A program made the translations under genes and the position numbers. Below, piece after piece: positions 8,568 through 33,438 of a stretch of DNA of 41,023 bases. The notes beneath the pieces were generated by a model. That model was given only the letters and a program-made list of their open reading frames with translations. It had not been told where the DNA came from and ran no database searches. This stretch comes from an uncultured Bacteroidota bacterium (GTDB lineage: Bacteria; Bacteroidota; Bacteroidia; Chitinophagales; LD1). The DNA is taken from assembly GCA_903919075.1 (NCBI GenBank), contig CAIXGR010000054.1:1-41023 (forward strand). The letters are read 5' to 3'. Position 1 is the stretch's first letter, and each line of letters starts with the position of its first letter.

Positions 8568-9863
8568 ATGGCAGAGAACGGAAAAAGTGAAGGAAAACCT
8601 TTAAGAATAGGCATTGAAGCAATTGCATTTGATATACCAGAGCATTATTTAGAAATGGCCGACCTTGCAACAGCAAGGGGAGTAGAGCCCGCAAAATATA
8701 CCGCCGGTCTTGGCCAAAAACAAATGGCCGTTGCTACCCCATGTGAAGATACCGTAGTTTTAGCCGCCGGTGCCGGACAAAGATTAATCAAGAATTTTAA
8801 TATCGACCCAAAGTCTATCTCAATGTTAATAGTGGGTACCGAAACTGGTGTTGATCACAGTAAGCCAGTGTCAAGCTACGTGCACCAAATTTTAGGTTTA
8901 TCTAGCGAATGCCGGGTGTTCGAAATTAAGCACGCTTGCTATGGTGCCATGGCGGGTTTAACCACTGCGGTTAATTATATTCTTTCCGGTAGGGCAAAAG
9001 GGCGCAAAGCACTGGTTATAGCCAGCGATATTGCACGCTATGGAAAAAATACCGTAGGCGAACCAACACAAGGCGCAGGTGCGGTGGCCATGCTTATTTC
9101 CGACAACCCTCAATTACTTGAAATTGATTATAACAATGAAGGCTTCTACGCCACACAGGTAATGGATTTTTGGAGACCGCTATATAGTAAAGAGGCTTTC
9201 GCCGATGGTCACTTCTCTATTCAATGCTATTTAGATGCTTTATCAGGTGCATACAACTTATACAAAAAGGGTGACGAGGCTAACGGTGCGCAATCAAAAG
9301 CTGCTAACGGTAAATTCGAGGCTTGCTTGTACCATGTTCCGTTTGTAAAAATGGCTCAAAAAGCACATCAAAGATTGTTGGAAACTGACGGCGGCCAAAA
9401 ATTTGAAAAAGACAGCCCTGAATTAAAAGCCGCTTTGCAGGATTTTGAAAAAAGAGTAGCGCCTGCTTTAGAACTTAACGCACGCGTAGGAAATATTTAC
9501 ACCGGTGCCTTATTTTTAAGCCTTGCTTATTTATTAGAAAGCTCGGCCGGTAAACTGGCTGGTAAACCAATAAGCCTTTTTAGCTACGGTAGCGGATGCG
9601 GTGCCGAGTTTATGGGCGCAAAAATTATGGAAGGTGCCGACCGGTTAATGAAAGTAGAATCGAACGAAGAAATTTTGAGCAAAAGAAGGCAAGTAAATAT
9701 GGCTAAGTACGAAGAAATACTTGATGCCTGCTCGAAAATGGATTTAAACGATGAAGAGAACCTATGCCAGCCCGAAAAATGGGACCTTAAACGCCCGGTG
9801 CTATACCTGGGTACGCAAAACCATAAAAGAATATACAGCGTTAATGGCGTGGTGTTGAATTAA
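8568..9863 (+). CDS. mvaS: Hydroxymethylglutaryl-CoA synthase
   Basis: This 431-residue cytoplasmic enzyme condenses acetyl-CoA with acetoacetyl-CoA to HMG-CoA, the first committed step of the mevalonate route to isoprenoids. The thiolase-fold catalytic residues are all present. C124 in KHACYGAMAG accepts the acetyl group, E92 in VGTETG is the general acid/base 32 residues earlier (the same spacing as in Staphylococcus aureus), and H256 is in LYHVPFVKMAQKAH. GSGCGAEF near 340-347 is the usual C-terminal loop. It is somewhat longer than typical bacterial MvaS (about 390). It appears to be a single-gene unit, with a hairpin after it; no other mevalonate gene is in the window. Confidence 0.95.
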   Translation: MAENGKSEGKPLRIGIEAIAFDIPEHYLEMADLATARGVEPAKYTAGLGQKQMAVATPCEDTVVLAAGAGQRLIKNFNIDPKSISMLIVGTETGVDHSKPVSSYVHQILGLSSECRVFEIKHACYGAMAGLTTAVNYILSGRAKGRKALVIASDIARYGKNTVGEPTQGAGAVAMLISDNPQLLEIDYNNEGFYATQVMDFWRPLYSKEAFADGHFSIQCYLDALSGAYNLYKKGDEANGAQSKAANGKFEACLYHVPFVKMAQKAHQRLLETDGGQKFEKDSPELKAALQDFEKRVAPALELNARVGNIYTGALFLSLAYLLESSAGKLAGKPISLFSYGSGCGAEFMGAKIMEGADRLMKVESNEEILSKRRQVNMAKYEEILDACSKMDLNDEENLCQPEKWDLKRPVLYLGTQNHKRIYSVNGVVLN

Positions 9864-12723: not shown

Positions 12724-13851
12724 ATGCAGGAAATACGGATGGTTGACCTTAAAACTCAATATCAGAGGCTGAAAAGCGAACTGGATGTAGCCATTGCACA
12801 GGTTTTAGAATCAACCCAGTTTATTAAAGGCCCCGAGGTAAAAAGGTTTGAAGAAAACCTTGCCCGCTACATGGGGGCAAAGCAAGTTATAGCTTGCGCT
12901 AACGGAACTGATGCTCTTCAAATTGCTATGATGGCGCTGGGTTATGAACCGGGAGATGAGGTAATAACAGCCGATTTTACCTATATAGCTACTGCCGAAG
13001 TTATAGCATTGTTGCGTTTAAAGCCTGTTTTGGTGGATGTAAACCCCGAAACGTTTACCATTGACCCAAGTGCTATTGAAAAAGCTATAACCCCCAAAAC
13101 ACGCGCTATTGTGCCCGTGCACCTGTTCGGCCAGTCGGCTGATATGGAGGGTGTTATGAAGGTTGCTAAAAAACATAATTTGGATGTGATTGAAGATAAT
13201 GCCCAAGCTATTGGGGCCGATTACACTTTCAGCGACGGCCGGAAACAGAAAGCCGGAACAATTGGTACAATCGGTACTACTTCTTTCTTCCCCTCAAAAA
13301 ATTTAGGCTGTTTTGGCGATGGTGGCGCACTATTTACCAATGATGATGCCTTAGCTGCTAAAATAAGGATGATTGCCAACCACGGCCAAAGCACCCAATA
13401 TATACATGATGAAATAGGCGTTAACTCGCGCCTGGATACTTTGCAGGCAGCCATACTGGATATAAAACTGAAATACTTAAATGATTTTGCCGCAAGAAGA
13501 GTTAAAGTGGCCGATTATTACGATAAGGCTTTCGGTGGTTTAAAAAATGCTCAAATACCGGTTCGGGCACCTTATTCAAATCATGTATTCCATCAATACA
13601 CTTTAAAAATTAAAAACATAAACCGCGACGAGGTGCGAAGAAAGCTGGCCGATAAAGGCATTCCTTCCATGATTTATTATCCTTTGCCTATGCACGTGCA
13701 AAAGGCATACAAAGATGAACGCTATAAAGAAGGTGCTTTTCCGGTTTCGGAAGAATTATGCAAATCGGTTTTATCATTGCCAATACATACCGAGTTTAAT
13801 GAGGAAGAATTGAAATATATTGCCGAAACTTTTATTAATATAGTTAAATGA
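12724..13851 (+). CDS. PLP-dependent sugar aminotransferase, DegT/DnrJ/EryC1 (WbpE-like)
   Basis: This 375-residue cytoplasmic aminotransferase of fold type I transfers an amino group from glutamate to a keto nucleotide sugar. Features are GTDAL (61-65) for PLP phosphate binding, EDNAQ with D158 pairing the pyridine nitrogen, and the Schiff-base lysine K192 in TTSFFPSKNLGCFGDGGAL. The close match to the WbpE/WlbC style (VDLKTQYQRLKSEL at the start, HVFHQYTL late) suggests UDP-2-acetamido-3-keto-glucuronate as substrate, supported by WbpD-like and WbpA-like genes downstream. Its stop overlaps the next start (ATGA, 13848-13851). It is first in the seven-gene nucleotide-sugar block. Confidence 0.92.
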   Translation: MQEIRMVDLKTQYQRLKSELDVAIAQVLESTQFIKGPEVKRFEENLARYMGAKQVIACANGTDALQIAMMALGYEPGDEVITADFTYIATAEVIALLRLKPVLVDVNPETFTIDPSAIEKAITPKTRAIVPVHLFGQSADMEGVMKVAKKHNLDVIEDNAQAIGADYTFSDGRKQKAGTIGTIGTTSFFPSKNLGCFGDGGALFTNDDALAAKIRMIANHGQSTQYIHDEIGVNSRLDTLQAAILDIKLKYLNDFAARRVKVADYYDKAFGGLKNAQIPVRAPYSNHVFHQYTLKIKNINRDEVRRKLADKGIPSMIYYPLPMHVQKAYKDERYKEGAFPVSEELCKSVLSLPIHTEFNEEELKYIAETFINIVK

Positions 13852-15161
13852 AGATAGCTGTTGTTGGTACAGGATATGTAGGCCTTGTTACAGGAACTTG
13901 TTTTTCGGAAACAGGAAACGAGGTAGTTTGTGTGGATGTAAATAAAGAAAAGGTTGAGCAGCTTAATAAAGGCGTTATACCAATATACGAGCCCGACTTG
14001 GAAACCATTTTCGAACGTAACACCAAACAGGGAAGATTAAAATTTACAACCTCACTGCAAGAAGGTATTGAAGGAGCTAAAATTATTTTCCTTGCCCTGC
14101 CTACACCACCCGGTGAAGATGGCAGCGCCGACCTAAAATACATTTTGCAGGTAGCCGAACAACTGGGCAACTTATTAAAGCAATATACTGTAGTAGTAAA
14201 TAAAAGCACGGTGCCGGTTGGTACTGCTGATAAAGTGCGCAACATTATTTCGAAAAATGCTAAGGTTGAATTTGATGTGGTTTCAAATCCCGAGTTTCTT
14301 CGCGAAGGAGTAGCTGTTGATGATTTTATGAGACCAGAGAGAGTAGTGGTAGGTACCCGTTCTGCAAAAGCAAGAAAAGTAATGGAGGAGCTGTACGAGC
14401 CTTTTGTTCGTCAAGGCAATCCGATAATATTTATGGATGAACGGAGTGCCGAGGTAACTAAATACGCGGCCAATGCTTTCTTAGCTACCAAAATTTCGTT
14501 TATGAATGAGATTGCTAATATGGCAGAACTGGTAGGCGCCGATGTTGACCAGGTGCGTAAAGGAATTGGAACCGATACCCGAATAGGAAAAAGATTTTTA
14601 TTTGCCGGCGTAGGTTATGGTGGCAGTTGTTTCCCGAAAGATGTGAAAGCGCTGTATCACACCGCTAAAGAAAATAAGTACGATTTTAAAATACTGCACT
14701 CAGTAATGGAGGTGAATGATTTGCAGCGCGAGCGGTTTGTAGAAAAAATTCTTGAAAAATATAAAGGCAATATTTCAGGCAAAACAATTGCTGTATGGGG
14801 CTTGGCATTTAAACCCAATACCGATGATATTCGTGAAGCACCTTCCATTTATATTCTCGAAAGGCTTTGCCAGGCCGGTGCCAAAGTAAGGGCATACGAC
14901 CCCGAGGCTATGGGCCATGTAAAGCAAATTTTTGGCGATAAAGTATACTTTGCCAGTGACGCGTACGATGCACTTACCGGGGCTGATATACTGGTTATTG
15001 CAACGGAGTGGAATATTTTCCGTTCGCCTGATTTCGACAAAATAACTTCGCTGCTAAAAGAGAAAGTAATATTTGATGGCAGGAATCTTTACAGTGTAGA
15101 AAACATGAAAGAGTTGGGGTATTATTATTACAGCATAGGAAGAGAAACTGTAGGAGAATGA
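13848..15161 (+). CDS. ugd: UDP-glucose 6-dehydrogenase
   Basis: This 437-residue enzyme oxidises UDP-glucose twice with NAD+ to UDP-glucuronate. It has an N-terminal Rossmann motif [10 protein letters not shown] (7-16), the family segment [20 protein letters not shown], catalytic C261 in [12 protein letters not shown], and the C-terminal UDP-binding domain with [17 protein letters not shown]. It starts inside the stop of the aminotransferase gene, and its own stop overlaps the next start by four bases, so translation is coupled. Its product is the substrate of the UDP-glucuronate decarboxylase encoded next. Confidence 0.95.
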
Positions 15162-16126
15162 AAAGAGTATTAATAACAGGAGCAGCAGGTTTTCTCGGCT
15201 CGCATTTATGCGACCGGTTTATCAAGGAAGATTTCCAGGTGATAGGCATGGATAATTTAATAACCGGCGACCTGAAAAATATTGAGCACCTTTTCAAATT
15301 AAAAAACTTCGAGTTTTATCATCACGATGTTTCGAAGTTTGTGCATGTGCCGGGCGAGTTGCCTTATATTCTACATTTCGCATCACCGGCTTCGCCTATT
15401 GATTATTTGAAGATTCCGATACAAACACTCAAAGTAAGTTCGTTGGGCACCCATAATTTATTGGGCCTTGCAAAAAATAAAAAATCGAGAATATTGGTTG
15501 CTTCTACCTCTGAAGTATACGGCGACCCGCAGGTTCACCCGCAAACTGAAGATTATTGGGGCAATGTTAACCCTGTAGGTCCGCGCGGTGTTTATGACGA
15601 GGCTAAACGGTTTCAGGAGGCTTTAACGATGGCCTATCATACTTATCATGGATTAGAAACACGCATTGTACGTATTTTTAATACGTATGGCCCAAGAATG
15701 CGACTGAATGACGGACGGGTATTACCTGCTTTTATTGGTCAGGCTTTGCGGGGAGAGGACCTAACTATATTTGGCGATGGAAGCCAAACACGTTCTTTCT
15801 GTTATGTTGATGATTTGGTGGAAGGTATTTACCGGTTGCTGATGAGCGATTATCATTTACCCGTTAATATTGGCAACCCCGATGAAATAACTATTAAAGA
15901 ATTTGCGGATGAAATTATAAAGCTGACAAGTACTAAACAAAAAGTAATTTGCAAGCCTCTACCGGTTGATGACCCTAAGCAAAGGCAACCGGATATAAGT
16001 CTTGCTAAAAAAGTATTAGGCTGGGAGCCCAAAGTACAAAGAGCAGAAGGTTTAGAAATTACCTATAATTATTTTAAAGGGCTAACACAGGAAGAATTGT
16101 ATAAATCAAAACATCGTTTTGAATAA
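15158..16126 (+). CDS. UDP-glucuronate decarboxylase (UDP-xylose synthase), SDR family
   Basis: This 322-residue extended SDR has the NAD-binding GAAGFLG at 8-14, the active-site Tyr-Lys pair Y146-xxx-K150 in [17 protein letters not shown] for the catalytic Ser/Thr region, and the UXS-typical [17 protein letters not shown] and [15 protein letters not shown]. It converts UDP-glucuronate to UDP-xylose through a 4-keto intermediate. It directly follows, with overlap, the UDP-glucose dehydrogenase that makes its substrate, so the pair forms a UDP-glucose to UDP-xylose route for envelope or exopolysaccharide. Confidence 0.93.
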
Positions 16127-16127
16127 T

Positions 16128-16715
16128 ATGGAAAATCAAAAATCAGATTATTTTGTTCACTCATCGGCCATAGTTGATGAGGGCTGCAAAATTGGTAAGG
16201 GAACTAAAATTTGGCATTTTAGCCATATTATGCCCGATTGTGTTATAGGAGAAAATTGTAATATTGGGCAAAATGTGGTGGTATCGCCCGATGTAGTGCT
16301 TGGCAATAATGTAAAGGTGCAAAACAACGTATCAATATACAGCGGTGTGGTTTGTGAGGATGATGTTTTTTTGGGGCCTTCGATGGTGTTCACCAACGTT
16401 ACGAATCCAAGAAGCGCTGTGAACAGGAGAGGGCAGTATGCAAAAACAGTGGTAAAGAAAGGTGCAAGCATTGGTGCCAATGCAACTATTGTTTGCGGAC
16501 ACGACATAGGAGAGTTTGCTTTTATTGGTGCCGGTGCGGTAGTAACAAAACATATTCTGCCATACGCACTAGTAGTAGGCAACCCGGCAAAGCAAACAGG
16601 TTGGATGAGCGAATACGGCCACAGGTTGAATTTTGATAAGAACGGCGTGGCAACGTGTGAAGAAAGCGGAGAAAAATATCAATTCAAAGACGGACATGTT
16701 TCAAAAATAAAATGA
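16128..16715 (+). CDS. Nucleotide-sugar N-acetyltransferase, left-handed beta helix (WbpD/WlbB-like)
   Basis: I choose ATG 16128, one base after the upstream stop (16124-16126); a TTG at 16119 would add three residues and overlap that gene. The 195-residue protein is a hexapeptide-repeat Lb[26 protein letters not shown] followed by isoleucine-patch coils, a loop at [17 protein letters not shown], and the coil [29 protein letters not shown]. This layout matches WbpD/WlbB, which uses acetyl-CoA to acetylate the 3-amino group of UDP-2-acetamido-3-amino-glucuronate. It fits the WbpE-like aminotransferase upstream. A C-terminal tail of about 30 residues ([11 protein letters not shown]) follows, as in relatives. 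Confidence 0.91.
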
Positions 16716-16719
16716 AGGT

Positions 16720-18009
16720 ATGGTACAGGAATTATTAAGTAAAAGAAAAAAACTGGCAGTATTAGGTTTGGGCTATGTAGGCCTGCCTATTGCACTTGAA
16801 TTTGCAAGAAAAATTTCAGTTATCGGGTTTGACATCAACAAGAAAAGAGTTGATTTGATGAAACAGCATATCGACCCGAGTAATGAATTAGAAGCAAAAG
16901 ATTTTGATGGAACCGATATTGAATTTACGGCCGACGTTGAAGATTTAAAAAAGGCAAGCTTTTACATTGTAGCAGTGCCCACACCAGTTGATAATCACAA
17001 TGTGCCCGATTTAAAGCCGGTGCTAAGTGCATCCGAAACAATTGGGAAGGTGATTAAGAAGGGTGATTACGTAGTGTTCGAATCTACGGTTTACCCGGGT
17101 TGTACTGAGGATGATTGCTTACCGGTTATTGAAAGGCTATCAGGATTAAAAGCCGGTACGGATTTTAAAATAGGCTATTCTCCAGAGAGAATTAACCCCG
17201 GTGATAAAGAACATACCATTACAAAAATAAAGAAAGTAGTATCGGGTTGCGATGCGGAATCGCTTGATGTGGTGGCTAAAACTTACGAGATAATAGTAAC
17301 TGCGGGTACACACAAAGCAAGTTCAATTAAAGTAGCTGAGGCTGCAAAGATTATAGAGAACACACAGCGCGATTTGAATATTGCGCTAATGAACGAGCTT
17401 TCGCAGATATTTGATTTGATGGGAATAAACACGTATGAAGTGCTGGAAGCTGCCGGTACGAAATGGAACTTCCTTAAATTTTACCCGGGTCTTGTTGGCG
17501 GGCATTGTATAGGCGTCGATCCTTATTATCTTACTTATAAAGCTTTGGCTTTGGGTTATAACCCCAATGTAATTTTGGCCGGCAGAAGAATAAATGATGA
17601 AATGGGCGCACATGTGGCGCGTAAGCTGGTTCAGCAACTTATTAAGTTGAATAAGCAGGTGGCTAATACCAAAGTATTGGTAATGGGCGCAACGTTTAAA
17701 GAAAATGTAAGCGATATCCGCAATTCGAAAGTGGTAGATGTAATTGATGAACTGAAACGTTATTCGGTTTTAACCGAAATAACCGATCCACTGGCCGATG
17801 CCGATGAATTTCATCACGAATATGGAATTAACCTGCGCAACGATTTCGGGAAAGATTATGATGCAGTAATTGTTGCCGTTAATCACGAACAGTTTTCAAA
17901 TTTAGATGATACATTTTTTAAAACCATTTTGAAAAAGGATGGAATAGTAGTTGATGTAAAAGGGGATTTACGGAATAAAATAAAATCTTTTAGTTATTGG
18001 TCGTTATAG
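16720..18009 (+). CDS. UDP-N-acetylhexosamine 6-dehydrogenase (WbpA/TviB/CapL-like)
   Basis: This 429-residue NAD-dependent nucleotide-sugar dehydrogenase has GLGYVGLP (16-23) in the Rossmann domain, ESTVYPGCTEDDC, GYSPERINPGD, and catalytic C263 in GLVGGHCIGVDPYYL. The HCIGVDPYYL form, rather than GGSCFPKD, separates it from UDP-glucose dehydrogenase and places it with UDP-GlcNAc/GalNAc dehydrogenases. It probably makes UDP-GlcNAcA, or UDP-GalNAcA if it follows the epimerase at 19143. It begins 4 bases after the acetyltransferase. Confidence 0.93.
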   Translation: MVQELLSKRKKLAVLGLGYVGLPIALEFARKISVIGFDINKKRVDLMKQHIDPSNELEAKDFDGTDIEFTADVEDLKKASFYIVAVPTPVDNHNVPDLKPVLSASETIGKVIKKGDYVVFESTVYPGCTEDDCLPVIERLSGLKAGTDFKIGYSPERINPGDKEHTITKIKKVVSGCDAESLDVVAKTYEIIVTAGTHKASSIKVAEAAKIIENTQRDLNIALMNELSQIFDLMGINTYEVLEAAGTKWNFLKFYPGLVGGHCIGVDPYYLTYKALALGYNPNVILAGRRINDEMGAHVARKLVQQLIKLNKQVANTKVLVMGATFKENVSDIRNSKVVDVIDELKRYSVLTEITDPLADADEFHHEYGINLRNDFGKDYDAVIVAVNHEQFSNLDDTFFKTILKKDGIVVDVKGDLRNKIKSFSYWSL

Positions 18010-18052
18010 TAAAATTGGATTACTAAAGCAATTGCTTTAAAATAGTAACAAA

Positions 18053-19120
18053 ATGAAAAAGGTTCTTATTACAGGAGGGGCAGGTTTTATCGGTTCGCAT
18101 GTAGTGCGGCTGTTTTTAAGTAATCATCCTGATTATGAAATATATAATCTAGATAAACTTACTTATGCTGGTAACCTTGAGAATTTAAAAGATGTTGAAG
18201 GCAACCCCAACTACAAATTTATAAAGGGCGATATAACTGATGCGGCTTTCATCAATACTTTATTTGATGAGAATAAATTTGGGGTGGTTATACATTTAGC
18301 TGCCGAAAGCCATGTTGATCGTTCTATTAGTAACCCTCTGGAATTTGTTACTACCAACGTAATAGGCACTGTAAATCTTTTGAACGCAGCGAAAAAAATC
18401 TGGGACTGCAACAAAGATAAGCCGGTGCGCCAGGATAGGATTTTTTACCATGTTTCAACCGATGAAGTTTATGGCTCGTTGGGTGAAACAGGTTTTTTTA
18501 CCGAGCAAACTTCCTACGATCCACAGTCGCCATATTCGGCGTCTAAAGCAAGTTCCGATCATTTTGTTCGGGCTTATTTCAATACTTATAATTTACCGGT
18601 AGTTATTTCAAACTGTTCGAATAATTATGGTGCCAATCAGTTTCCAGAAAAATTGATACCGCTGTTTATTCATAATATCAGAAACAATAAACCGCTACCG
18701 GTATATGGCGATGGTAAATACACCCGCGATTGGCTTTGGGTAGTTGATCATGCACGTGCTATTGATTTGATTATGCACAAAGGGGAACTGGGCGAAACAT
18801 ATAATATTGGCGGCTTTAACGAGTGGCAAAATATTGAATTGATAAAGCTAATGTGCAGCATTATGGATAAAAAGCTTGCACGCAAACCAGGCGAATCAGA
18901 AAAACTAATCACCTATATAAAGGACAGGCCGGGGCACGACAGGCGCTATGCTATTGATGCAGCAAAGTTGAATAAAAACCTGGGCTGGAAACCTTCGGTA
19001 ACTTTTGAAGAAGGATTGGAAAAAACAATTGACTGGTATTTAGCTAATGAAGAATGGTTGAAACACCTTACTTCGGGCGAGTATCAAAAATATTACGAAC
19101 AGCAATACGCTGCTCGGTAG
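18053..19120 (+). CDS. rfbB: dTDP-glucose 4,6-dehydratase
   Basis: This 355-residue extended SDR has GGAGFIG (8-14), HLAAESHVDRS (81-91, the RmlB signature), the catalytic triad region STDEVYG with T136, D137 and E138, Y161-xxx-K165 in YSASKASSDH, and NNYGANQFPEKLIP. It converts dTDP-glucose to dTDP-4-keto-6-deoxyglucose, a precursor of dTDP-rhamnose and aminodeoxy sugars. RmlA, RmlC and RmlD are not in the window, so either they lie elsewhere or the product feeds another deoxysugar. It starts 43 bases after the dehydrogenase. Confidence 0.94.
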   Translation: MKKVLITGGAGFIGSHVVRLFLSNHPDYEIYNLDKLTYAGNLENLKDVEGNPNYKFIKGDITDAAFINTLFDENKFGVVIHLAAESHVDRSISNPLEFVTTNVIGTVNLLNAAKKIWDCNKDKPVRQDRIFYHVSTDEVYGSLGETGFFTEQTSYDPQSPYSASKASSDHFVRAYFNTYNLPVVISNCSNNYGANQFPEKLIPLFIHNIRNNKPLPVYGDGKYTRDWLWVVDHARAIDLIMHKGELGETYNIGGFNEWQNIELIKLMCSIMDKKLARKPGESEKLITYIKDRPGHDRRYAIDAAKLNKNLGWKPSVTFEEGLEKTIDWYLANEEWLKHLTSGEYQKYYEQQYAAR

Positions 19121-19142
19121 AAAACAATAAGCAGTAAATAAC

Positions 19143-20138
19143 ATGTACGAGGTTCCATATCATAATAAAGATTTATCGAAATTCTCTTTTCTGATTACAG
19201 GCGGAGCGGGCTTTATTGGCTCGAACATTGCTGAGTATCTTTTAAAGTATGGCGCTAAAAAGGTACGCGTGCTCGATAATTTGGCTACCGGCAACAAGGC
19301 TAATGTCGAAGCATTTAAAAGCAACCCGGCATTCGAATTTATTGAAGGCGATATACGCAATTTGGAAACCTGCCGTAAAGCCTGCGAAAGAATAGATTTT
19401 GTTTCGCACCAAGCTGCTTTGGGGTCAGTTCCACGTTCGGTTAAAGAGCCTGAGAATACTAATGCAGTAAATGTGGATGGTTTTTTAAATGTACTGATTG
19501 CAGCTAAAGATAATAAGGTTAAGAATTTTGTTTATGCGTCTTCATCATCGGTTTACGGCGATGAAAAAACTTTACCTAAAGTAGAAGAGAAAACCGGTAA
19601 CCCGCTTTCGCCGTATGCAGTAAGCAAGTGGACGAATGAATTATATGCTAAGGTGTTTTATAACGTATATGGCTTAAATGTAGTGGGCCTTCGCTACTTC
19701 AATATATTCGGGCCTCGTCAGGACCCAAAGGGTGAATACGCCGCAGTAATGCCGCTGTTCATTGATAAGATTATGAAAAAAGAGGAAGTGTATATTGATG
19801 GCGATGGCAACCAAACACGCGATTTTACCTTTGTTGAGAATGCTGTGCAGGCCAATGTTAGGGCTATGCTAAATGAAAACGCCGAGGCTTTTAATCAGGT
19901 TTTTAATATTGCAGTGGGAGAGAACTTTTCGGTTAATCATTTATATACTGAAATTCAAAAATTGCTGAGTAGCGATCATAACGCCAAATACCGCGAAACG
20001 CGTAAAGGTGATATTAGAAATTCGTTGGCTGATATTTCAAAAGCAAAAAATCTGCTTGGTTATAATCCCGAATTTCAATTTGGTAAAGGACTTGCTATTA
20101 CGGTAGAATACTTCCACAAGTTTTATTTAGCCCGGTAA
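19143..20138 (+). CDS. UDP-N-acetylglucosamine 4-epimerase-like SDR (WbpP/VipB type)
   Basis: This 331-residue SDR has GGAGFIG at 20-26 after a 19-residue N-terminal extension, HQAALGSVPRSVKEP (89-103, the WbpP/VipB signature), YASSSSVYGD, and Y158-xxx-K162 in YAVSKWTNELYA. WbpP-type enzymes interconvert UDP-GlcNAc and UDP-GalNAc (and the uronic acids) at C4. With the dehydrogenase at 16720 it could give UDP-GalNAcA. It is the last gene in the nucleotide-sugar block and is followed by a strong terminator. Confidence 0.91.
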   Translation: MYEVPYHNKDLSKFSFLITGGAGFIGSNIAEYLLKYGAKKVRVLDNLATGNKANVEAFKSNPAFEFIEGDIRNLETCRKACERIDFVSHQAALGSVPRSVKEPENTNAVNVDGFLNVLIAAKDNKVKNFVYASSSSVYGDEKTLPKVEEKTGNPLSPYAVSKWTNELYAKVFYNVYGLNVVGLRYFNIFGPRQDPKGEYAAVMPLFIDKIMKKEEVYIDGDGNQTRDFTFVENAVQANVRAMLNENAEAFNQVFNIAVGENFSVNHLYTEIQKLLSSDHNAKYRETRKGDIRNSLADISKAKNLLGYNPEFQFGKGLAITVEYFHKFYLAR

Positions 20139-20165: not shown

Positions 20166-20207
20166 AAATAAAAAAAGAGAACCATTGAGTGTTCTCTTTT
20201 TTTATTT
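20166..20207. terminator. Bidirectional terminator between convergent genes
   Basis: A perfect 17-bp stem pairs 20166-20182 with 20191-20207 (core AAAAAGAGAAC / GTTCTCTTTTT), with an 8-base loop CATTGAGT. A-run and T-run arms allow it to serve both the plus-strand block ending at 20138 and the minus-strand gene ending at 20234. Confidence 0.85.
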
Positions 20208-20233: not shown

Positions 20234-23200
20234 TTAATGCGGTATACTATCCATTAACTGTTGCTGGTTTTGCACCGGTTGAATAGTATCTTGTTTAGGC
20301 GCTTCCTGAACCGGTACTTGTTGTGGAGGAGCATCCTGCTTAATTTCTCCACCCGGTTGGGCAGGGCTTTGTGCAGGTGGAACCGGCTCTTCCTTAACCG
20401 GTGGTGTTTTCTCCGGTTCCGGTTGTTTTATGTTCTGCTCAGGTGCATTTGGTTGAATTTCTTCTTTTGGTTGTCCGGCATCTGGTTTTACCGGTGCCTC
20501 AGGCTCGTTTATTTCCTGCTTCTGCGGAACGGTATCTTGTTTAGGTTCTTCTTTATGCTTAATTCTATCGGGTGGCGGACCGGAAAGGATACTGCCACCA
20601 TTCATTTTCATTTGGTTGATTTGGTCGATTTCGCGTTGGTCTATATCTTCTCTTTTAGGTTGTTCAGGTACCGCATTACCCGTGGTATCGCCCGGCAAAT
20701 CATTGATGGATGATGTGTCGTTTACGGGAATTTCTTCCTGTGGCGCTCTTGGCTCAGGCCGCGGACGGCTTATACCGGCTGCCTTGTCTTTCATATAATC
20801 AAGAAAATCGGCCTTGTTTAATGGCGAAGCAGGGGTATACATGTAGAAACGGTTGTTGCTGCCTTTTACTTTTCGTTTATCCGGAGAGGTGGCAGTAATA
20901 ATTTTCGCAATGTCATCGTAAGATGAAAGAACACCTAAGGCACCGGGGCGGTATTCGAAATAAAACCAGCCTTTAGTACCGGTTTGCAAATAAATTGTAA
21001 ATACATCGGCACCGCCTTTGTATTGAATTTCGATAGTGCCCTCTATTTTTTTATTAATTACTTTTTTGCCAATCATGGCCACGCCGATTTTGCCTACCGA
21101 GCGGAGAGAAACGTCGTCAGGATCGAAAACGAAATTGACATCGCTAAAAACAAGATTGTAGTCAAAGTTTTTAGGGCGCTTTGTAAAGGTTGGTGATTTG
21201 CTGAATTCCTCCAGTTGCTTTCTATCGTCCCTATCGCCGTATAATTCGCTTATTGCCTTTTTTTGATGGTCGGTTTCGTAAGTTAGTTCAGGTTGGTCGA
21301 AATTATCGCCGGCCATATAAAATTCAAAACGCTCTTGAATCTTATCGCCCATTTGCGCATCGAGCCCTAAAGTAAAGTTCAGTTTATATTTACCGGAATC
21401 TAGCTTAACATCGGCGTTACCCGCTGCCATGCTTTTAATAAGGCCAAATTTAGTGCCCAAATCAAATTTTCCTTCTGCTTTTACAGTGCCTTTTTTATCA
21501 TCGTAGCGCAACACATTTCCGTACTGTGTATTGCCTTTAATTTTTTCAGCATTGCCAAATAGGTATTCGCCGGTAGATAATTGGGTAACAATGCCAGTGG
21601 TTTTAAATATCGGAATGTCGCGGTTATTTAATTTTGGCGCCATTATGGTTGTATATATCGCCGCTGCATCGGGAACAGGATTGATGTGTATACCGGCGCT
21701 AAGTTTGTTGTTCGAAGAATTTTTTGTTGCGGTATCGTATTTTAAAGCCAGGCTTTTTGGGTCAACCCCCTGGTTGATGAAAAATTCTGATGTAGTGGTT
21801 TTAGGGTTTTTGAAATCAATTTTTGCATACCCTTTAAAATTGATGAATGAATCAACTGATGCAATATTTCCTTCACCGTTGAATTTTACATTTGGATAGA
21901 TTGCAAAATTTTGTTTTTCATCAATATTAGTTTTGGCAATTAATTTCCATACCTCAGTCTTTTTTTTGTGCTCGCCTTCAGTTTCTCTTTTGGTTGAGAT
22001 ATCACCAAACTCAAGCACTTCATGAATGTCCTTAGTAGTATAATGGTAAATGCCCACGGCTTTTAATTCTTCCTTGCTATAAATATCTACAGTAGCGCTG
22101 TCGAACCGGTGAAACTTATGTATGGTATCGGCAAAAATTATGGCGTTATGCAGTTGGTGCATTTTAGCTTCGCCTTCAATGGTAATTACTCCGCTATCTG
22201 GTACCACACTTGCATCTGCTACTTTTATTTCAGGAACTTGCTCAACACGTAAAACCGATGTAACCAGATTGTACGTTGCACGCTTGCCTAAAAACTTTAA
22301 GCCTTTTTGGTCGTGGCGGGTTGAGGTAAAATATTCACCCGGGCCTTGAGCCGGTGCTTTAAAGTCGAGAATTTTTTCATCCATATACCATTTAAACTCG
22401 TTAATAGCAGTGGTGTATTGATTGTAGGAAAACTCGGTAGGAATATTAAGCAGGTTAGATTTGAAATCGCCGATGCGCGATTTAAAATCAACCTTGGCGG
22501 AAACGTTTGGTGTTTTAAACGAAACCCTATCGCCGGTAGTTTTAATATTCAGCGCTGCGGTATCGGCACTTAAATTCATTGTTTTAAAACTAAAATCTTT
22601 TGAAGTTAGTGTTGCAAGGTCCCAGTCAAGTGTTCCGTTTCCTCTTAGTCCATTATCGGTAAGTAGAAGGCTTCCTTTAAAAGTAGTAAACGAATCATCA
22701 TACATAGCAAAAGGTTTGTCCTTAGCCTTCATGCTGATAAACATACTATCAGAAACCGGCAGCCAAAAAACCTGATCGGAGTCGCCGGTTACTTTAGGTG
22801 TTTTTACGCCTTCAAAGGTTTTAGAAATTAAAAATGTATCGGTAATAGCCCTCAATGAATCGGGATACAAGTGCACATCGTTGGTTGTAAAATCTGCAGT
22901 GCTGTGAGTAATTCTACCGGTACCCTGTAAGCCGGAATAGTTCAATTCAAATTTTCCGTAATATTTACCTTTGCCTTTATATAAATCGTAACCATTTTTC
23001 GGCGTTTCAGATTTAAAGCCTAATGATTCATCACGTTGCAGGTGAACACTATCGTGCAAATCAGGAAAAATGCCACCGGAAACTAATTTCCCCTGCCAGT
23101 TAATAATATCAGCGCTAAAATTGTTCAAGCTATCTAACCGGAAAGGCTCCAATTCAAAGAAGAAATTTTTTCGGGTGTATGCGCCTTTGGCAACTTTTGG

Positions 23201-25252
23201 GTCATCGTAATATATATACGATTTTTCCTTGCTATATAAACGTGGAAACTGGGGTAGCCTTGTGCGCCCTGATTTATTAATGGGTGCATCAATTTCAAGT
23301 AGCCCCTTTATGCCCTCTACTTTCGATTTCATGGGTTTTAGAATCGGGTTGCCGTCACGGTCTACTTTGTTGCTATCAGGCACGTTAATACGCATGGTAT
23401 CAACCTTTGTAAGCTCAACGGTAAAAGGCAAATATTCAAACCTGAATTTTTCACCGGTCATATCCATTCTGCCGGCATACATTAAGCCGTCGAATTCCAT
23501 GTTGCGGTCTTTCTGCAAGCTAATGCTGTTGTCCTTTGGGCGGAAATAAACGTAATCACTATCGCTGATGGGCACTTCAAACACACCCTTTAAATCTATA
23601 TTGCTGCTTTTAAGGTCGATGTAATCATTTCCTGATTGAGGTGCTGACTTAATGGTAATAATATCGTAATCAATTTTTTTAGCTTTTGCCAAAACGTAAT
23701 TAATTGCTTTTTCCTTTACGTTAATTACACCAATATCTTCGTTGTATAAAATAAAGCCGCTGCCTACCAAGTCGTATAACAAAGATTTTATTTCATTTTC
23801 TTTAAGGTTAGGATCCAATGCACGCGCAAATTCAGTAACGTTTACGGTGCGCGAGTTAGTTTTATCGCATATTTTTTTGAGAACATAAAGTGGTTCGTAC
23901 GATGCAACACCTTGTGTTTTACGAAGCAATTCTTTATTGAAATAATTTACCGATTCATACACCCCCGGTTTTTTTCCTACACCTGATAATATTTTAAGAT
24001 TGAGAACGGCTGAATCAAGATTCCAGAAAATGGCATCGGTTTGAAACTCATCATTATGATAAGAGTCAGTGAACTTAGCCTGACCCATACCGGTTTCAGC
24101 ACGCAACAAGCGCATTTCGTGTTTCTGGATTTTGTAGATAAGGTTTAGCTGCGGGTGATAAATAGAATCAGTGCCGAAGTAAATTGAAACCTCAGCTTTT
24201 TCGGCAGCTAATTCCTGACCTTTTTTAATAGTAAGATTTTGGGCGTGGCAAGTAAGCGTTCTTGTTTTTCCATCGCGCGCAAAAAAGGTAAGCTGTGCTT
24301 TTGCCTCGGGTGTACCATAGCCCAATACTTTTGAACCATGTAGACTAAAGCCACCGGTGTATGAAACATTTGGCGCAAGATCTTTAATAGTCATACCAAC
24401 ATCATAAGATTCAAAACGCGGATACGAGGCATTTACCGAATCAATGCCCGAAAGCATTTTGTCAGTTAGTTTTCCTTTAAGTGGTTGTTTGAAATATTCA
24501 AGGTCATAAAAAATGACAGAATCAACGCTATAGCCAACCGATGACAGGTTAACGCTGTAATCTTTAAACGTGCAATACACTTTGGCTGCATCATAACCTG
24601 CGCGGCTCCAATCTACCTTACCTGATTTGCCTACCCATTTTGTTTCAAGCGGGTAATAGGCGCCAGCTGTTTGATTTATTACAACGCTATCGCCCCTAAC
24701 ATTGCCGGTAAGTGTGGTGGTTGGGAAAATAACTGCCGGCTTATTATTATCGTATGCAAATTTATAATCGGGCGATGCCACACGCCATGATTTTGCCGGT
24801 GTTGAGTTTAAAGCGTTTTCGTCGAAAAAGCTGTTTGAAAATTCGATGAATTTCAGAAAGTCGTTGTTGTCGCCTTTTTTTTGATTGTCGATTATATGAC
24901 CGGCAAGCGTATTCCATTCTTCAAATTGCTCGTCGGTTTTTTTACTTTTTACTGCGCTTATAACAGCATTAAGATAATGGTAAAAATGCGGTGCCGGGGC
25001 CATGTTGCGCGCAATCATTAGGTCGGCAGTGGTAATTACCTGATCTAGCCAGGCTGAGCTGAGCTTACCATCTTTAACCATCTTTTGCAACTCATCCATG
25101 GTTTTAATGTTGGCTTCCATTTTGCTGTTGGTCATGTACTGGTTCAATTCTTTCATGAACCGGTCATGCTCGGCAGGAAAGGATGTGATTTGCTGTGCAT
25201 TTGAATATGCAAACATTAAAATGCAGGCTATTGAAATGAAAGTTTTTTTCAT
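20234..25252 (-). CDS. Giant exported beta-rich protein with Pro-rich tail, unknown function
   Basis: I start at the ATG ending at 25252 because it gives a textbook signal peptide (MKKTFISIACILMFAYSNAQ). A GTG at 25297 would add 15 residues and overlap prmA. The protein is about 1672 residues. In order it has a helical N-terminal region (about 25-145), a first beta-rich region (about 150-435), a short helical segment resembling a winged helix (about 450-530, YVLKKICDKTNSRTVNVTEF...LVGSGFILYNED), and a very long region of repeated beta strands (about 535-1490). The last 180 residues are Pro/Gln/Glu-rich and disordered. The beta strands recall AsmA- or OstA-like periplasmic proteins, but no diagnostic motif is visible. 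It is encoded 14 bases behind prmA. Confidence 0.9.
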   Translation of the reverse strand: MKKTFISIACILMFAYSNAQQITSFPAEHDRFMKELNQYMTNSKMEANIKTMDELQKMVKDGKLSSAWLDQVITTADLMIARNMAPAPHFYHYLNAVISAVKSKKTDEQFEEWNTLAGHIIDNQKKGDNNDFLKFIEFSNSFFDENALNSTPAKSWRVASPDYKFAYDNNKPAVIFPTTTLTGNVRGDSVVINQTAGAYYPLETKWVGKSGKVDWSRAGYDAAKVYCTFKDYSVNLSSVGYSVDSVIFYDLEYFKQPLKGKLTDKMLSGIDSVNASYPRFESYDVGMTIKDLAPNVSYTGGFSLHGSKVLGYGTPEAKAQLTFFARDGKTRTLTCHAQNLTIKKGQELAAEKAEVSIYFGTDSIYHPQLNLIYKIQKHEMRLLRAETGMGQAKFTDSYHNDEFQTDAIFWNLDSAVLNLKILSGVGKKPGVYESVNYFNKELLRKTQGVASYEPLYVLKKICDKTNSRTVNVTEFARALDPNLKENEIKSLLYDLVGSGFILYNEDIGVINVKEKAINYVLAKAKKIDYDIITIKSAPQSGNDYIDLKSSNIDLKGVFEVPISDSDYVYFRPKDNSISLQKDRNMEFDGLMYAGRMDMTGEKFRFEYLPFTVELTKVDTMRINVPDSNKVDRDGNPILKPMKSKVEGIKGLLEIDAPINKSGRTRLPQFPRLYSKEKSYIYYDDPKVAKGAYTRKNFFFELEPFRLDSLNNFSADIINWQGKLVSGGIFPDLHDSVHLQRDESLGFKSETPKNGYDLYKGKGKYYGKFELNYSGLQGTGRITHSTADFTTNDVHLYPDSLRAITDTFLISKTFEGVKTPKVTGDSDQVFWLPVSDSMFISMKAKDKPFAMYDDSFTTFKGSLLLTDNGLRGNGTLDWDLATLTSKDFSFKTMNLSADTAALNIKTTGDRVSFKTPNVSAKVDFKSRIGDFKSNLLNIPTEFSYNQYTTAINEFKWYMDEKILDFKAPAQGPGEYFTSTRHDQKGLKFLGKRATYNLVTSVLRVEQVPEIKVADASVVPDSGVITIEGEAKMHQLHNAIIFADTIHKFHRFDSATVDIYSKEELKAVGIYHYTTKDIHEVLEFGDISTKRETEGEHKKKTEVWKLIAKTNIDEKQNFAIYPNVKFNGEGNIASVDSFINFKGYAKIDFKNPKTTTSEFFINQGVDPKSLALKYDTATKNSSNNKLSAGIHINPVPDAAAIYTTIMAPKLNNRDIPIFKTTGIVTQLSTGEYLFGNAEKIKGNTQYGNVLRYDDKKGTVKAEGKFDLGTKFGLIKSMAAGNADVKLDSGKYKLNFTLGLDAQMGDKIQERFEFYMAGDNFDQPELTYETDHQKKAISELYGDRDDRKQLEEFSKSPTFTKRPKNFDYNLVFSDVNFVFDPDDVSLRSVGKIGVAMIGKKVINKKIEGTIEIQYKGGADVFTIYLQTGTKGWFYFEYRPGALGVLSSYDDIAKIITATSPDKRKVKGSNNRFYMYTPASPLNKADFLDYMKDKAAGISRPRPEPRAPQEEIPVNDTSSINDLPGDTTGNAVPEQPKREDIDQREIDQINQMKMNGGSILSGPPPDRIKHKEEPKQDTVPQKQEINEPEAPVKPDAGQPKEEIQPNAPEQNIKQPEPEKTPPVKEEPVPPAQSPAQPGGEIKQDAPPQQVPVQEAPKQDTIQPVQNQQQLMDSIPH

Positions 25253-25266
25253 TACGCTGTTTTTAT

Positions 25267-26091
25267 TTATGGGTGCTGAAAAGTTATGGCAAGCCACCCG
25301 TTATTTTTTAGTTTACTTTTTAATGAAAGGCCAATGTTTTGAGCCAGGTTTGTTATATCCACTTCATCGCTTAGTAATATTCCGCTTACTATCAGTATTC
25401 CATTTTTGTTCAGCAATTCTTTCCACTTCGAAATATTTTGGAGTATTACATTACGGTTGATGTTTGCTAAAATTATATCAAATTTAGAGTTGAACAAGTA
25501 CGAATCGTCGCCGCTTATTGCGGTTATTTTAATGCAATGATTTCGCTCAATATTTTCCAAACAATTTTTATATGCCCATTCCTCGTTATCAATGGCTACA
25601 ATACTGTCAGCTTTTAACTTTTCAGCAAGTATAGCCAATACGCCTGTGCCCGAGCCAAAATCAAGCACCGTTTTATTCACAAAGTTTTCACGCAGCATTA
25701 ATTCAATAACCGAAGCCGTAGTGGCGTGATGGCCTGTGCCAAAGCTCATTTTAGGTTCAATAATTATTTCAAACTCGGTATGAAACTGGCTGTGGAAAGG
25801 AGCACGAATGGCAACCCGGTTGTTTACTACTACAGGCTCAAAATTCTTTTCCCATTCTTCGTTCCAGTTCTTGTTTTCAAGTTTCGAAGCAGTATATTCA
25901 ATATGCTTAAAGTCGTTATCGGTCAATATTTTTTTCACCAATGGCTCATCGGCCTGCTTGCCCGATGCGTATGCCTTTAGCGATTCATTGGTTTCTTCGA
26001 AACCTTCAAAACCATAATCGCTAAGAAGCGAGATGAGCCAACCGCGCTCTATTTCATCAGTAGTAAAAAACTCGTAAACAGAATAAATCAT
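25267..26091 (-). CDS. prmA: Ribosomal protein L11 methyltransferase
   Basis: This 274-residue SAM-dependent methyltransferase trimethylates ribosomal protein L11 on lysines. The substrate-recognition N-domain is followed by the PrmA signature MSFGTGHHATT (115-125), SAM motif I VLDFGSGTGVLAI (142-154), an acidic strand end (VAIDNEEWA) and ANINRNVI, the family's version of the catalytic-loop motif. Its start overlaps the tpiA stop (ATGA, 26088-26091), so translation is coupled, and the giant exported protein follows 14 bases later. Confidence 0.94.
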   Translation of the reverse strand: MIYSVYEFFTTDEIERGWLISLLSDYGFEGFEETNESLKAYASGKQADEPLVKKILTDNDFKHIEYTASKLENKNWNEEWEKNFEPVVVNNRVAIRAPFHSQFHTEFEIIIEPKMSFGTGHHATTASVIELMLRENFVNKTVLDFGSGTGVLAILAEKLKADSIVAIDNEEWAYKNCLENIERNHCIKITAISGDDSYLFNSKFDIILANINRNVILQNISKWKELLNKNGILIVSGILLSDEVDITNLAQNIGLSLKSKLKNNGWLAITFQHP

Positions 26092-26840
26092 TGTGAGGCT
26101 TGTATAATAGCTAGAAAATCGCTGGCGTTTAGTGAAGCACCGCCTACTAAACTACCATCAACATCAGGACATGAAAAAAGTTCTTTGGCGTTAGATGGGT
26201 TACAACTACCGCCGTATAGAATAGGTAATTGTGCGGAAAAAGAATCGGAATATTTTTTAGCAAATTGTTTGCGGATAAAGGCGTGCATGTTGCTTGCTTG
26301 TTCAGCCGTGGCATTTAAACCGGTGCCTATGGCCCAAACAGGCTCGTAAGCAATAATGATGTTCGAAATTTCAGTAGCCGAAAATCCGAACAAACTTTCC
26401 TTCAGTTGATTTAATACAAAATCTTCCTGTCCGTTAGCTTCGCGTATTTGTTTAGGCTCGCCACAGCAAAAAACAGGCTTCAAATTATATTTAAGGGCAA
26501 TCTTTAGTTTTTCTTTCAGTATTTCATTCCTTTCGTTGTAGTGCTCTCTTCTTTCTGAATGTCCAATTAGCACATACTCTATTCCCAAACTTTTAAGTTG
26601 TTGGGCCGATACTTCACCGGTGAATGCTCCATTCTCTCGGTGGCTGCAATTTTGCGCACCAATATTAATTTTACTTTTATTAAGAATGTTCTTTACACTT
26701 TCTAAAAACACAAACGATGGGAATAATAGTACCTCGCATTTCAAACTACCCTCGTGTGCCACTATATCCTTAGCCAGGCCTGCAGCAGTTTGCAGGTCTA
26801 AATTCATTTTCCAATTACCGGCTATTATTTTTTTTCTCAT
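26088..26840 (-). CDS. tpiA: Triosephosphate isomerase
   Basis: This 250-residue TIM barrel interconverts dihydroxyacetone phosphate and glyceraldehyde 3-phosphate. All catalytic residues are present: N9 and K11 in AGNWKMN, H94 in IGHSERR, and E166 in AYEPVWAIGTG, the last being the start of the mobile loop 6. The phosphate-binding GGSCNP appears near residue 210. It is first in a tight minus-strand unit tpiA-prmA-giant exported protein. Confidence 0.97.
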   Translation of the reverse strand: MRKKIIAGNWKMNLDLQTAAGLAKDIVAHEGSLKCEVLLFPSFVFLESVKNILNKSKINIGAQNCSHRENGAFTGEVSAQQLKSLGIEYVLIGHSERREHYNERNEILKEKLKIALKYNLKPVFCCGEPKQIREANGQEDFVLNQLKESLFGFSATEISNIIIAYEPVWAIGTGLNATAEQASNMHAFIRKQFAKKYSDSFSAQLPILYGGSCNPSNAKELFSCPDVDGSLVGGASLNASDFLAIIQASQ

Positions 26841-31710: not shown

Positions 31711-33438
31711 ATGAAAAAAATATACTTTTTGGCAATTATAGCCATTGGCTTTATGGTATACCCTAATGGCCAAGTAAATGCGCAGGGCATAGCTATTAAT
31801 ACTTCAGGATTACCACCTGATAGTTCAGCAGCGCTTGATGTTAGTTCTACTAAAAAAGGCATGTTAATTCCCCGAATGACAACTACGCAAAGAAATTTAA
31901 TAACTTCTCCCGCCTCGTCGCTTCTAATATTTAATACCACGGATAATTGTTACGAATCATATAATGGAAGCTTATGGCAATCGGTTATTTGTTTGTGTAC
32001 GGCACCGCCATCCACACCCGGTTCTATTACCGGTAATGTTTCGCCATGTATTAATGCCAATAGTGTTATTTATTCTATTGTGCCAGTTAGTGGCGCAAAT
32101 TCATATACCTGGACTGCCCCAGGTGATGCTACTATTACTGCAGGGCAGGGCACCACTTCGGTTACTGTTAATTTTGGCAGTAGTTCCGGTAATATGACAG
32201 TAACTGCTTCGAACAGTTGTGGCAGTAGTAGTGCAAGCATTTTGCCAATAAGTATAAGTAATGTTCCTGGTATACCGGGTACTATATCGGGTAATACTTC
32301 GCCGTGTACAGGTTCAACAGGTATCAATTATTCTATTTCGGCTGTAAGCGGTGCTACATCATATACATGGACTGTGCCTTCCGGTGCAGTAGTAACCGCC
32401 GGGCAGGGCACTACCTCGGTGCTGGTTAATTTTTCTAGCACTCCCGGCGATATTACAGTAGCCGCAAGCAACACCTGTGGTACAAGCGGTGCCAGCACAC
32501 TGCCCATTACAATAAGTGTTACCCCCAATACCCCAGGTTCTGTTTCGGGGCCTACAAGTTTTTATAATGGTGAAACAGGGGTTAATTATTCTGTTTCGGC
32601 AGTAAGTGGGGCCAGCACTTATAGCTGGACTGTTCCTTCTTCCGGCAACATAACAGCTGGCCAGGGAACAACTTCTATTACGGTTAGTTTTTCCGATACC
32701 GTAGCAGGTAATGTATGCGTTACTGCCGGTAATGCCTGTGGAACAAGCAGCGCCAGCTGTACCACACTTTCCTATGGTTGTTATGTTCCCGGTTCACAAG
32801 ATTTTAGTTATACCGGGGCTGCACAAACGTTTACAGTACCCTGCGGTGTAACCAGTGTAACATTGAGTGTTTGGGGTGCGCAGGGTGGTGGTGCGGGTAA
32901 CGGAGGGCTGGGAGGATATGCAACAGGAAATCTGGCAGTATCATTTGGCGAGCAACTATATGTTTATGTAGGTCAAGCCGGCGGTGGCTCCGGTACCCCC
33001 GAAACTTTTGGTGGTGGTGGAAATGGTGCTCAATACGATAGGGGTGGGGGTGGAGGAGCATCGGATGTAAGAGTAGGTGGTAACGGTATTGGTAACCGGG
33101 TTATTGTTGCCGGTGGTGGTGGTGGTGCCAACGCTGGCGCAACCGGTGGGTATGGAGGTGGACTGGTTGGCGGTAATGGTAGCGATAACAATTCGTTTGG
33201 CGGAACGCAAAGCAGCTGGGGAACCGGAAGTTGTTGCCCATGCCCGGTACCTTCGCAAGGTAATGGCGAAGATGGCTCATGCTCTGGTTGCAACGGCGCC
33301 GGTGGTGGTGGCGGATATTGGGGTGGTGGCGCTTGTACGCAGGGCGGAGGTGGTAGTGGTTATATTGGCGGTGTTACCGGTGGTTCAATGCAAAGCGGAA
33401 TTCAATCGGGCAATGGTAAGGCTACAATATCATGGTGA
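31711..33438 (+). CDS. Secreted protein with PKD-like repeats and ALK-type glycine-rich domain
   Basis: This 575-residue protein has a signal peptide (1-25, ending NGQVNAQ). Next comes the segment SSAALDVSSTKKGMLIPRM...LLIFNTTDNCYESYNGSLWQ (38-90), seen at the N-terminus of many Bacteroidota exported proteins. Three PKD-like Ig-fold repeats follow (about 100-185, 186-271, 272-356), each with the pattern PGS/TISG, NYSI, SYTWTVP, AGQGTTS, and a Cys-containing end. The C-terminal 363-575 is extremely Gly-rich. It begins with TFTVPCGVTSVTLSVWGAQGG and continues with LYVYVGQAGGG, GGGGGASDVRVGG and VIVAGGGGGANAG, as in the glycine-rich domain of receptor kinases such as ALK. Cys-rich segments near 508-542 may form disulfides. 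There is no recognisable type IX C-terminal signal. Adhesion or extracellular structure is a guess. Confidence 0.9.
   Translation: MKKIYFLAIIAIGFMVYPNGQVNAQGIAINTSGLPPDSSAALDVSSTKKGMLIPRMTTTQRNLITSPASSLLIFNTTDNCYESYNGSLWQSVICLCTAPPSTPGSITGNVSPCINANSVIYSIVPVSGANSYTWTAPGDATITAGQGTTSVTVNFGSSSGNMTVTASNSCGSSSASILPISISNVPGIPGTISGNTSPCTGSTGINYSISAVSGATSYTWTVPSGAVVTAGQGTTSVLVNFSSTPGDITVAASNTCGTSGASTLPITISVTPNTPGSVSGPTSFYNGETGVNYSVSAVSGASTYSWTVPSSGNITAGQGTTSITVSFSDTVAGNVCVTAGNACGTSSASCTTLSYGCYVPGSQDFSYTGAAQTFTVPCGVTSVTLSVWGAQGGGAGNGGLGGYATGNLAVSFGEQLYVYVGQAGGGSGTPETFGGGGNGAQYDRGGGGGASDVRVGGNGIGNRVIVAGGGGGANAGATGGYGGGLVGGNGSDNNSFGGTQSSWGTGSCCPCPVPSQGNGEDGSCSGCNGAGGGGGYWGGGACTQGGGGSGYIGGVTGGSMQSGIQSGNGKATISW
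32008..32778 (+). repeat. Three tandem ~258-bp repeats encoding PKD-like domains
   Basis: Units at 32008-32265, 32266-32523 and 32524-32778 encode domains of 85-86 residues sharing a TAGQGTTS-like turn and a TYxW strand. Units one and two are most alike, down to the NTSPC or NVSPC start. Copy number could vary between strains. Confidence 0.75.

Follow-up and report, generated by a model that had tools for sequence, protein, structure and literature searches.

What kind of protein is encoded by the very long gene that follows prmA in this Chitinophagales genome, and what could it do in the cell envelope? The stretch analysed, here called the window, is 41,023 nt long, and the gene lies at 20234..25252 on its minus strand. 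A direct check of the frame confirmed the gene as originally described, with an ATG at 25252, 1672 codons and a stop codon at 20234-20236, and homologs of the 1672 aa product support it. The gene immediately upstream, prmA (ribosomal protein L11 methyltransferase; 25267..26091, minus strand), ends 14 bases before it and overlaps tpiA (triosephosphate isomerase; 26088..26840, minus strand) by 4 bases, which agrees with the spacing given in the original prediction. Both neighbours were identified by Pfam and NCBIfam, as was a gene for a GlmU-like enzyme farther upstream in the window. On the 3′ side, a terminator-like hairpin followed by a T run (20171..20200, minus strand) was read by eye, without a program score. 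Several other genes of the window lie on the plus strand. At 12724-20138 there are sugar-nucleotide genes for a DegT-type aminotransferase and a UDP-sugar dehydrogenase, together with two epimerase/dehydratase-like proteins named by sequence alone. HMG-CoA synthase, an enzyme of the mevalonate pathway, was assigned by Pfam at 8568-9863. A 575-residue protein at 31711-33438 has an ALK/LTK glycine-rich domain in addition to three PKD_6 stretches and is probably surface-exposed.

The giant protein begins with a signal-peptide-like segment (residues 1-19; 25196..25252, minus strand). Its single hydrophobic stretch resembles a cleavable signal and ends in SNAQQ, a pattern that had been proposed as a signal peptide and that recurs in relatives; cleavage would be expected after SNA. 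The stretch is only mildly hydrophobic in the window protein (1.22 on a 19-residue scale). Among 20 aligned members of the family, 15 have their peak of hydrophobicity over 19 residues at the N-terminus; the other 5 have a more hydrophobic stretch elsewhere, with the highest value outside the N-terminus, 1.71, in L020 and L042, and lack of a membrane anchor is thus not proven. The sole Cys of the segment, residue 10, lies within the hydrophobic part and is not conserved. At the other end, residues 1493-1672 (20237..20776, minus strand) form the predicted Pro/Gln/Glu tail of 180 residues, 43% of which are Pro, Gln or Glu. This tail is not conserved, and its length across the 20 members ranges from 0 to 444 residues. 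The idea that it spans the peptidoglycan as a part of the machine found no support, as the tail measures 0, 2 and 4 residues in three of the 20 members (L032, L031 and L033, respectively). In that sense it is a dispensable extension.

That no motif identifies the protein was borne out by every collection searched. The best Pfam match of the window protein had an E-value of 0.059, below the cut-off, and NCBIfam gave nothing at E up to 1; 20 diverse members yielded no Pfam match better than E 0.021. A phmmer search against the sequences of solved structures returned no match for the window protein, and a profile of the 20 members found just two antibody chains (E 1.2 and 1.4). No description of such a family was found in a partial literature search, for which the protein offered no name to query.

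The protein is present as a single copy in its own genome (search at E up to 1), and within its own family 29 of 30 genomes contain its core of ∼1490 residues, the exception being a genome that is 77% complete. In the order-level sample it was matched in 142 of 198 genomes, and in the phylum-level sample in 14 of 395, both with a single-protein query and with a profile; all three counts include the genome of the window. One family of the same order (f2) gave no match in any of the 13 genomes listed, and another (f3) was mixed. As the genome search often scored just two of its first candidates, such absences are likely, not proven. An initial single-protein scan of named genomes gave no match. 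The 34 loci of public genomes with the giant protein are all titled as Bacteroidota, several of them as Chitinophagales. One genome that is 78% complete (G494) had two full-length matches on different contigs (C118 and C64), representing either a paralogue or contamination. The 20 aligned members are 1489-1941 residues long and share 51 invariant columns; because the core is preserved in all of them (22-70% identical to the window protein), the feature exceeds what chance would produce. We conclude that the giant protein represents a real, old and uncharacterised family.

The structure was predicted with AlphaFold2 from 30-row alignments of the window protein and its relatives, as two overlapping models covering residues 20-960 (mean pLDDT 88.1, pTM 0.65) and 560-1500 (mean pLDDT 87.6, pTM 0.61). 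The pTM values leave the overall shape and length of the protein uncertain. In the models, an N-terminal domain of six helices (residues 29-145; 24818..25168, this and the following features on the minus strand) precedes a first part of a beta groove (residues 147-436; 23945..24814). A winged helix of five helices and three short strands is set within a jellyroll unit at residues ∼437-525 (23678..23944); it corresponds to the winged-helix-like insert that had been placed at 450-530. The main groove, mostly strands, spans residues 526-1300 (21353..23677) and is followed by a C-terminal alpha/beta domain of helices, seven strands and helices (residues 1301-1492; 20777..21352). The strand-rich architecture expected from the sequence is evident, with 98 strands of at least 3 residues in both models combined, and the modelled part (residues 20-1500) contains no beta barrel. 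In the 62 strands of at least 5 residues the hydrophobic fraction was 0.69 on one face and 0.32 on the other, a difference of 0.367 compared with at most 0.339 in 500 shuffles. Such two-faced strands fit a groove, but also any sandwich. Neighbouring strands in a sheet are spaced 0.48 nm apart, and from 77-88 strands in two sheets (residues 150-1300, those of the winged helix included) we estimate that the predicted groove would be ∼18-21 nm long.

Comparison of the models with solved structures, the check proposed with the original prediction, matched units of the groove to proteins of the Lpt pathway. With Foldseek, neither model gave a match at E 0.001 or below. The LptA chains 2r19_B, 2r1a_A and 2r1a_E were nevertheless listed at probabilities of 0.97-1.00 and target TM of 0.56-0.60 (2r19_B: probability 1.00, TM 0.58, rmsd 3.1; 2r1a_A: 0.97, 0.60 and 3.3), and the LptC entries 4b54_B, 3my2 and 6mit_C at 0.99 with the first model; the E-values of these high-probability LptA and LptC matches were 0.006-0.25. 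Each credible match spans one unit. Chains of LptD, along with ApoB100, stood near the top of the lists by E-value with probabilities of at most 0.35, and the top-listed LptD chains had an rmsd above 30, so that they do not represent a whole-chain alignment.

In VIA-align, Lpt-pathway chains (LptD jellyroll, LptA, LptC and LptH), aligned over 120-221 residues, headed the matches listed for both models. They fill the first 19 rows for the second model, at Z 11.3-8.1, whereas the first model has 14 such rows at its top, at Z 10.3-7.5. One of these entries, 4q35, is titled merely "membrane protein" and is presumably LptDE; another, 9a39, is itself an integrative model. The next rows were a TCP10 domain (Z 7.5) for the second model, and MarR 2hr3 (Z 7.4) and then TCP10 (Z 7.2) for the first. 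Models that lack a clear match usually reach a best Z of 7-8 in VIA-align. The uniform Lpt rows and the Z of up to 11.3 exceed this background, clearly for the second model and modestly for the first; the margin is modest, above all for the first model, because the unrelated TCP10 domain scores Z 7.5 and 7.2. Several of the Lpt matches of the first model span residues 232 to 528-530 with 137-158 residues aligned, thus skirting the winged helix. The winged helix itself shares the fold of MarR/CodY-type domains, with Foldseek probabilities of 0.77-0.95 (0.95 for MarR 2hr3_C) and, in VIA-align, Z 7.4 over 83 aligned residues of MarR 2hr3_D. Since its host protein is probably exported, DNA binding by this domain is unlikely, and it is probably a module for docking to proteins. 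Judging from the models, the giant protein is likely a long series of beta-jellyroll units of Lpt type, preceded by a helical head and ending in an alpha/beta domain, with a winged helix inserted in one unit. The likeness to Lpt is one of predicted fold only.

The groove contains one clear internal duplication. In a profile-profile comparison by hhalign of residues 280-640, minus the winged helix, with residues 820-1100, windows picked after earlier weaker matches, residues 333-586 (23495..24256, minus strand), which the winged helix interrupts, aligned with residues 880-1032 (22157..22615, minus strand) at a probability of 96.3 and E 1.7e-9. Reversed controls gave E 0.22 and 0.15. Residues 753-811 matched residues 846-905 at E 3.2e-8, a value without a reversed control, and a weak match (probability 43%) linked residues 177-220 to 824-882. 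Most other pairs of internal units compared by hhalign were negative. These alignments suggest that duplication produced part of the groove, one of the copies having received the winged helix as an insertion.

The original prediction had likened the protein to an envelope bridge of the AsmA or Lpt type. At the level of fold this holds for Lpt, given the 19 and 14 top VIA-align rows and the several high-probability Foldseek matches; kinship in sequence was not found. Profile comparison with OstA, LptD and TamB gave no sign of such kinship: hhalign of the family against proteins of related genomes, covering OstA_2 from 20 of 30 loci, TamB from 14 of 14 (frames truncated where the loci end) and LptD_2 from 11 of 14, reached a best probability of 6.4%, which was also the best value against the 20 OstA_2 proteins. 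Pfam OstA was matched in 0 of 20 members, and no member had an AsmA or TamB match (PF04357/PF05170) at E 0.1.

The Lpt bridge of LptA, LptC and the N-terminal domain of LptD, OstA-like in Bacteroidota, has the same predicted beta-jellyroll units in series, and a signal-like N-terminus is likewise shared. It is built of separate small proteins, whereas the giant protein is one chain with ∼1000-1150 groove residues, an inserted winged helix and extra domains, and is not encoded beside lpt genes; OstA_2 and LptD_2 of its own genome are on another contig (C70). In the case of LptD the N-terminal jellyroll is matched (Z up to 11.3), but the outer-membrane barrel is missing from the model of the giant protein, which ends in a small alpha/beta domain. 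TamB and AsmA-like proteins such as YhdP and YdbH are of similar size and have a very long beta-groove in one chain, as is predicted for the giant protein. They differ in carrying PF04357/PF05170, and the giant protein shows no clear N-terminal membrane anchor, its one N-terminal hydrophobic stretch looking like a cleavable signal. Because at least one of the tested defining features of each group was absent, we place the giant protein outside both Lpt and AsmA/TamB and group it separately, with the periplasmic lipid-groove proteins.

Replacement of a standard system by the giant protein was considered and rejected. Each of the 30 genomes compared, 14 with the giant protein and 16 without, contained OstA_2, TamB, LptD_2 and Omp85, and TamB thus coexists with it in all 14 carrier genomes tested. 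As OstA_2, LptD_2 and TamB are there regardless of the giant protein, it adds to them. An AsmA match was found in 25 of the 30 genomes, 14 of 14 with the giant protein and 11 of 16 without it (in G349 the match lies only below the family cut-off). These raw counts over related genomes, with several families tried, run opposite to compensation. Flavobacterium johnsoniae is reported to have seven AsmA-like proteins (PMC12045153).

We also compared the neighbourhood of the gene in 47 loci, 42 of which were evaluable; not all are independent, as some share one genome. In 34 of the 42, prmA was located no more than 345 bases upstream and on the same strand, and tpiA was found within the available flanking sequence in 24. 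The prmA genes beside the giant gene are 36-74% identical to that of the window, which indicates that the pairing is old. Viewed from prmA, 30 prmA regions (from 32 genomes) included 7 from carriers, in 3 of which the giant gene adjoins prmA, and 23 others, in none of which it does; the prmA frame is unmarked in 2 of the 30. The proposed coupling to tpiA-prmA therefore stands for prmA as a neighbour and is weaker for tpiA; functional coupling is without support. tpiA is relevant to glycerol phosphate supply, and a link to lipids read from this role would be speculation. Beyond prmA, tpiA and the GlmU-like gene nothing is widely kept, and the conserved neighbours include no gene devoted to lipid transport. 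In two loci a PlsY-type glycerol-3-phosphate acyltransferase is the next gene downstream (L161, 12756-13397; L166, 6548-7243; the L161 copy was scanned), and in two others a Skp/OmpH-like chaperone follows on the same strand (L080, 12827-13417; L094, 13098-13688; the L080 copy was scanned).

Three other readings of these data deserve attention. The protein could belong to the AsmA/TamB (beta-taco) superfamily as a diverged representative that has lost or hidden the N-terminal anchor and the Pfam signature typical of it and works with an Omp85 partner as TamB does. Its size resembles that of TamB in the same genomes (full frames of 1416-1875 aa in nearly all), and an Omp85 protein is available in each of the 30. 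PMC12800296 describes the TamB groove as very similar to the domains of LptC, LptA and LptD and as filled with phospholipid tails in simulation; likeness to the Lpt fold hence does not tell which lipid is carried. The same paper describes a C-terminal end of two helices and six strands in TamB, which the helices-then-strands order of the C-terminal domain recalls. The strands of this domain do not alternate significantly (310 of 2000 shuffles reached the observed value), on which ground its interpretation as a TamB-like half barrel was rejected. The missing AsmA/TamB matches in the 20 members, the negative hhalign result with the 14 partial TamB frames and the apparently cleavable signal also speak against membership, as does the lack of TamB structures among the Foldseek and VIA-align matches listed, which does not exclude them. 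We regard this origin as unlikely.

A mechanical role for the same fold, in which the protein acts as a tether or scaffold that spaces parts of the envelope or carries partners via the winged helix and the helical head and transports nothing, would suit its several non-groove domains, the lack of a conserved lipid-transport neighbour and the apparent absence of the protein from a family within its order in which the other systems are retained. Against it stand the nearest solved folds, which are lipid carriers, and the amphipathic alternation along the strands, and we consider this role rather improbable. Finally, the protein could be a secreted or surface beta-rich protein, such as an adhesin or a shell of the Rhs/YD type, its likeness to Lpt reflecting a common arrangement of long sheets. 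Rhs/Tc shells and OspA do occur in the Foldseek lists at similar E-values, and OspA variants reach Z 6.7 in VIA-align. There they rank below the Lpt rows, as do the Rhs/Tc shells; the protein is single-copy in the genome of the window and its core is kept over the class, and we hold a surface role to be very improbable. The Rhs/YD shell in particular was rejected, as neither of two YD-like motif patterns tested occurs in the giant protein.

Taken together, we favor the interpretation that the giant protein is an uncharacterised periplasmic lipid-groove bridge formed by one polypeptide with a long Lpt-type beta-jellyroll, to which, on the basis of the predicted models, we assign a probability of about 0.55. 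The protein would be exported and, once its signal peptide is cleaved, would be free of any membrane anchor. With ∼77-88 strands arranged in two sheets, the groove would measure ∼18-21 nm, close to the width of a periplasm, and could hold the acyl chains of lipids and pass them between the inner and the outer membrane. Docking to partner proteins would fall to the helical head, the inserted winged helix and the C-terminal domain. Such a bridge would run beside the ordinary Lpt and TamB/AsmA systems. More tentatively, and with the odds rather against it, the family may represent a new class: a single soluble protein, anchored in neither membrane, as a trans-envelope lipid conduit, in which a groove of Lpt type as long as the periplasm lies between docking sites recognised by the C-terminal domain, the head and a winged helix working outside the cytoplasm, and which is old in its Bacteroidota class, was lost in some families and works beside Lpt and TamB.

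The supply of phospholipids and other lipids to the outer membrane is only partly solved even in Escherichia coli and less known for Bacteroidota. A conserved and unnamed core of ∼1500 residues with a predicted lipid-groove fold and no Pfam family, present in the majority of genomes sampled from an order, provides a defined target for this question, and families with Lpt and TamB but without the giant protein can serve as a natural comparison.
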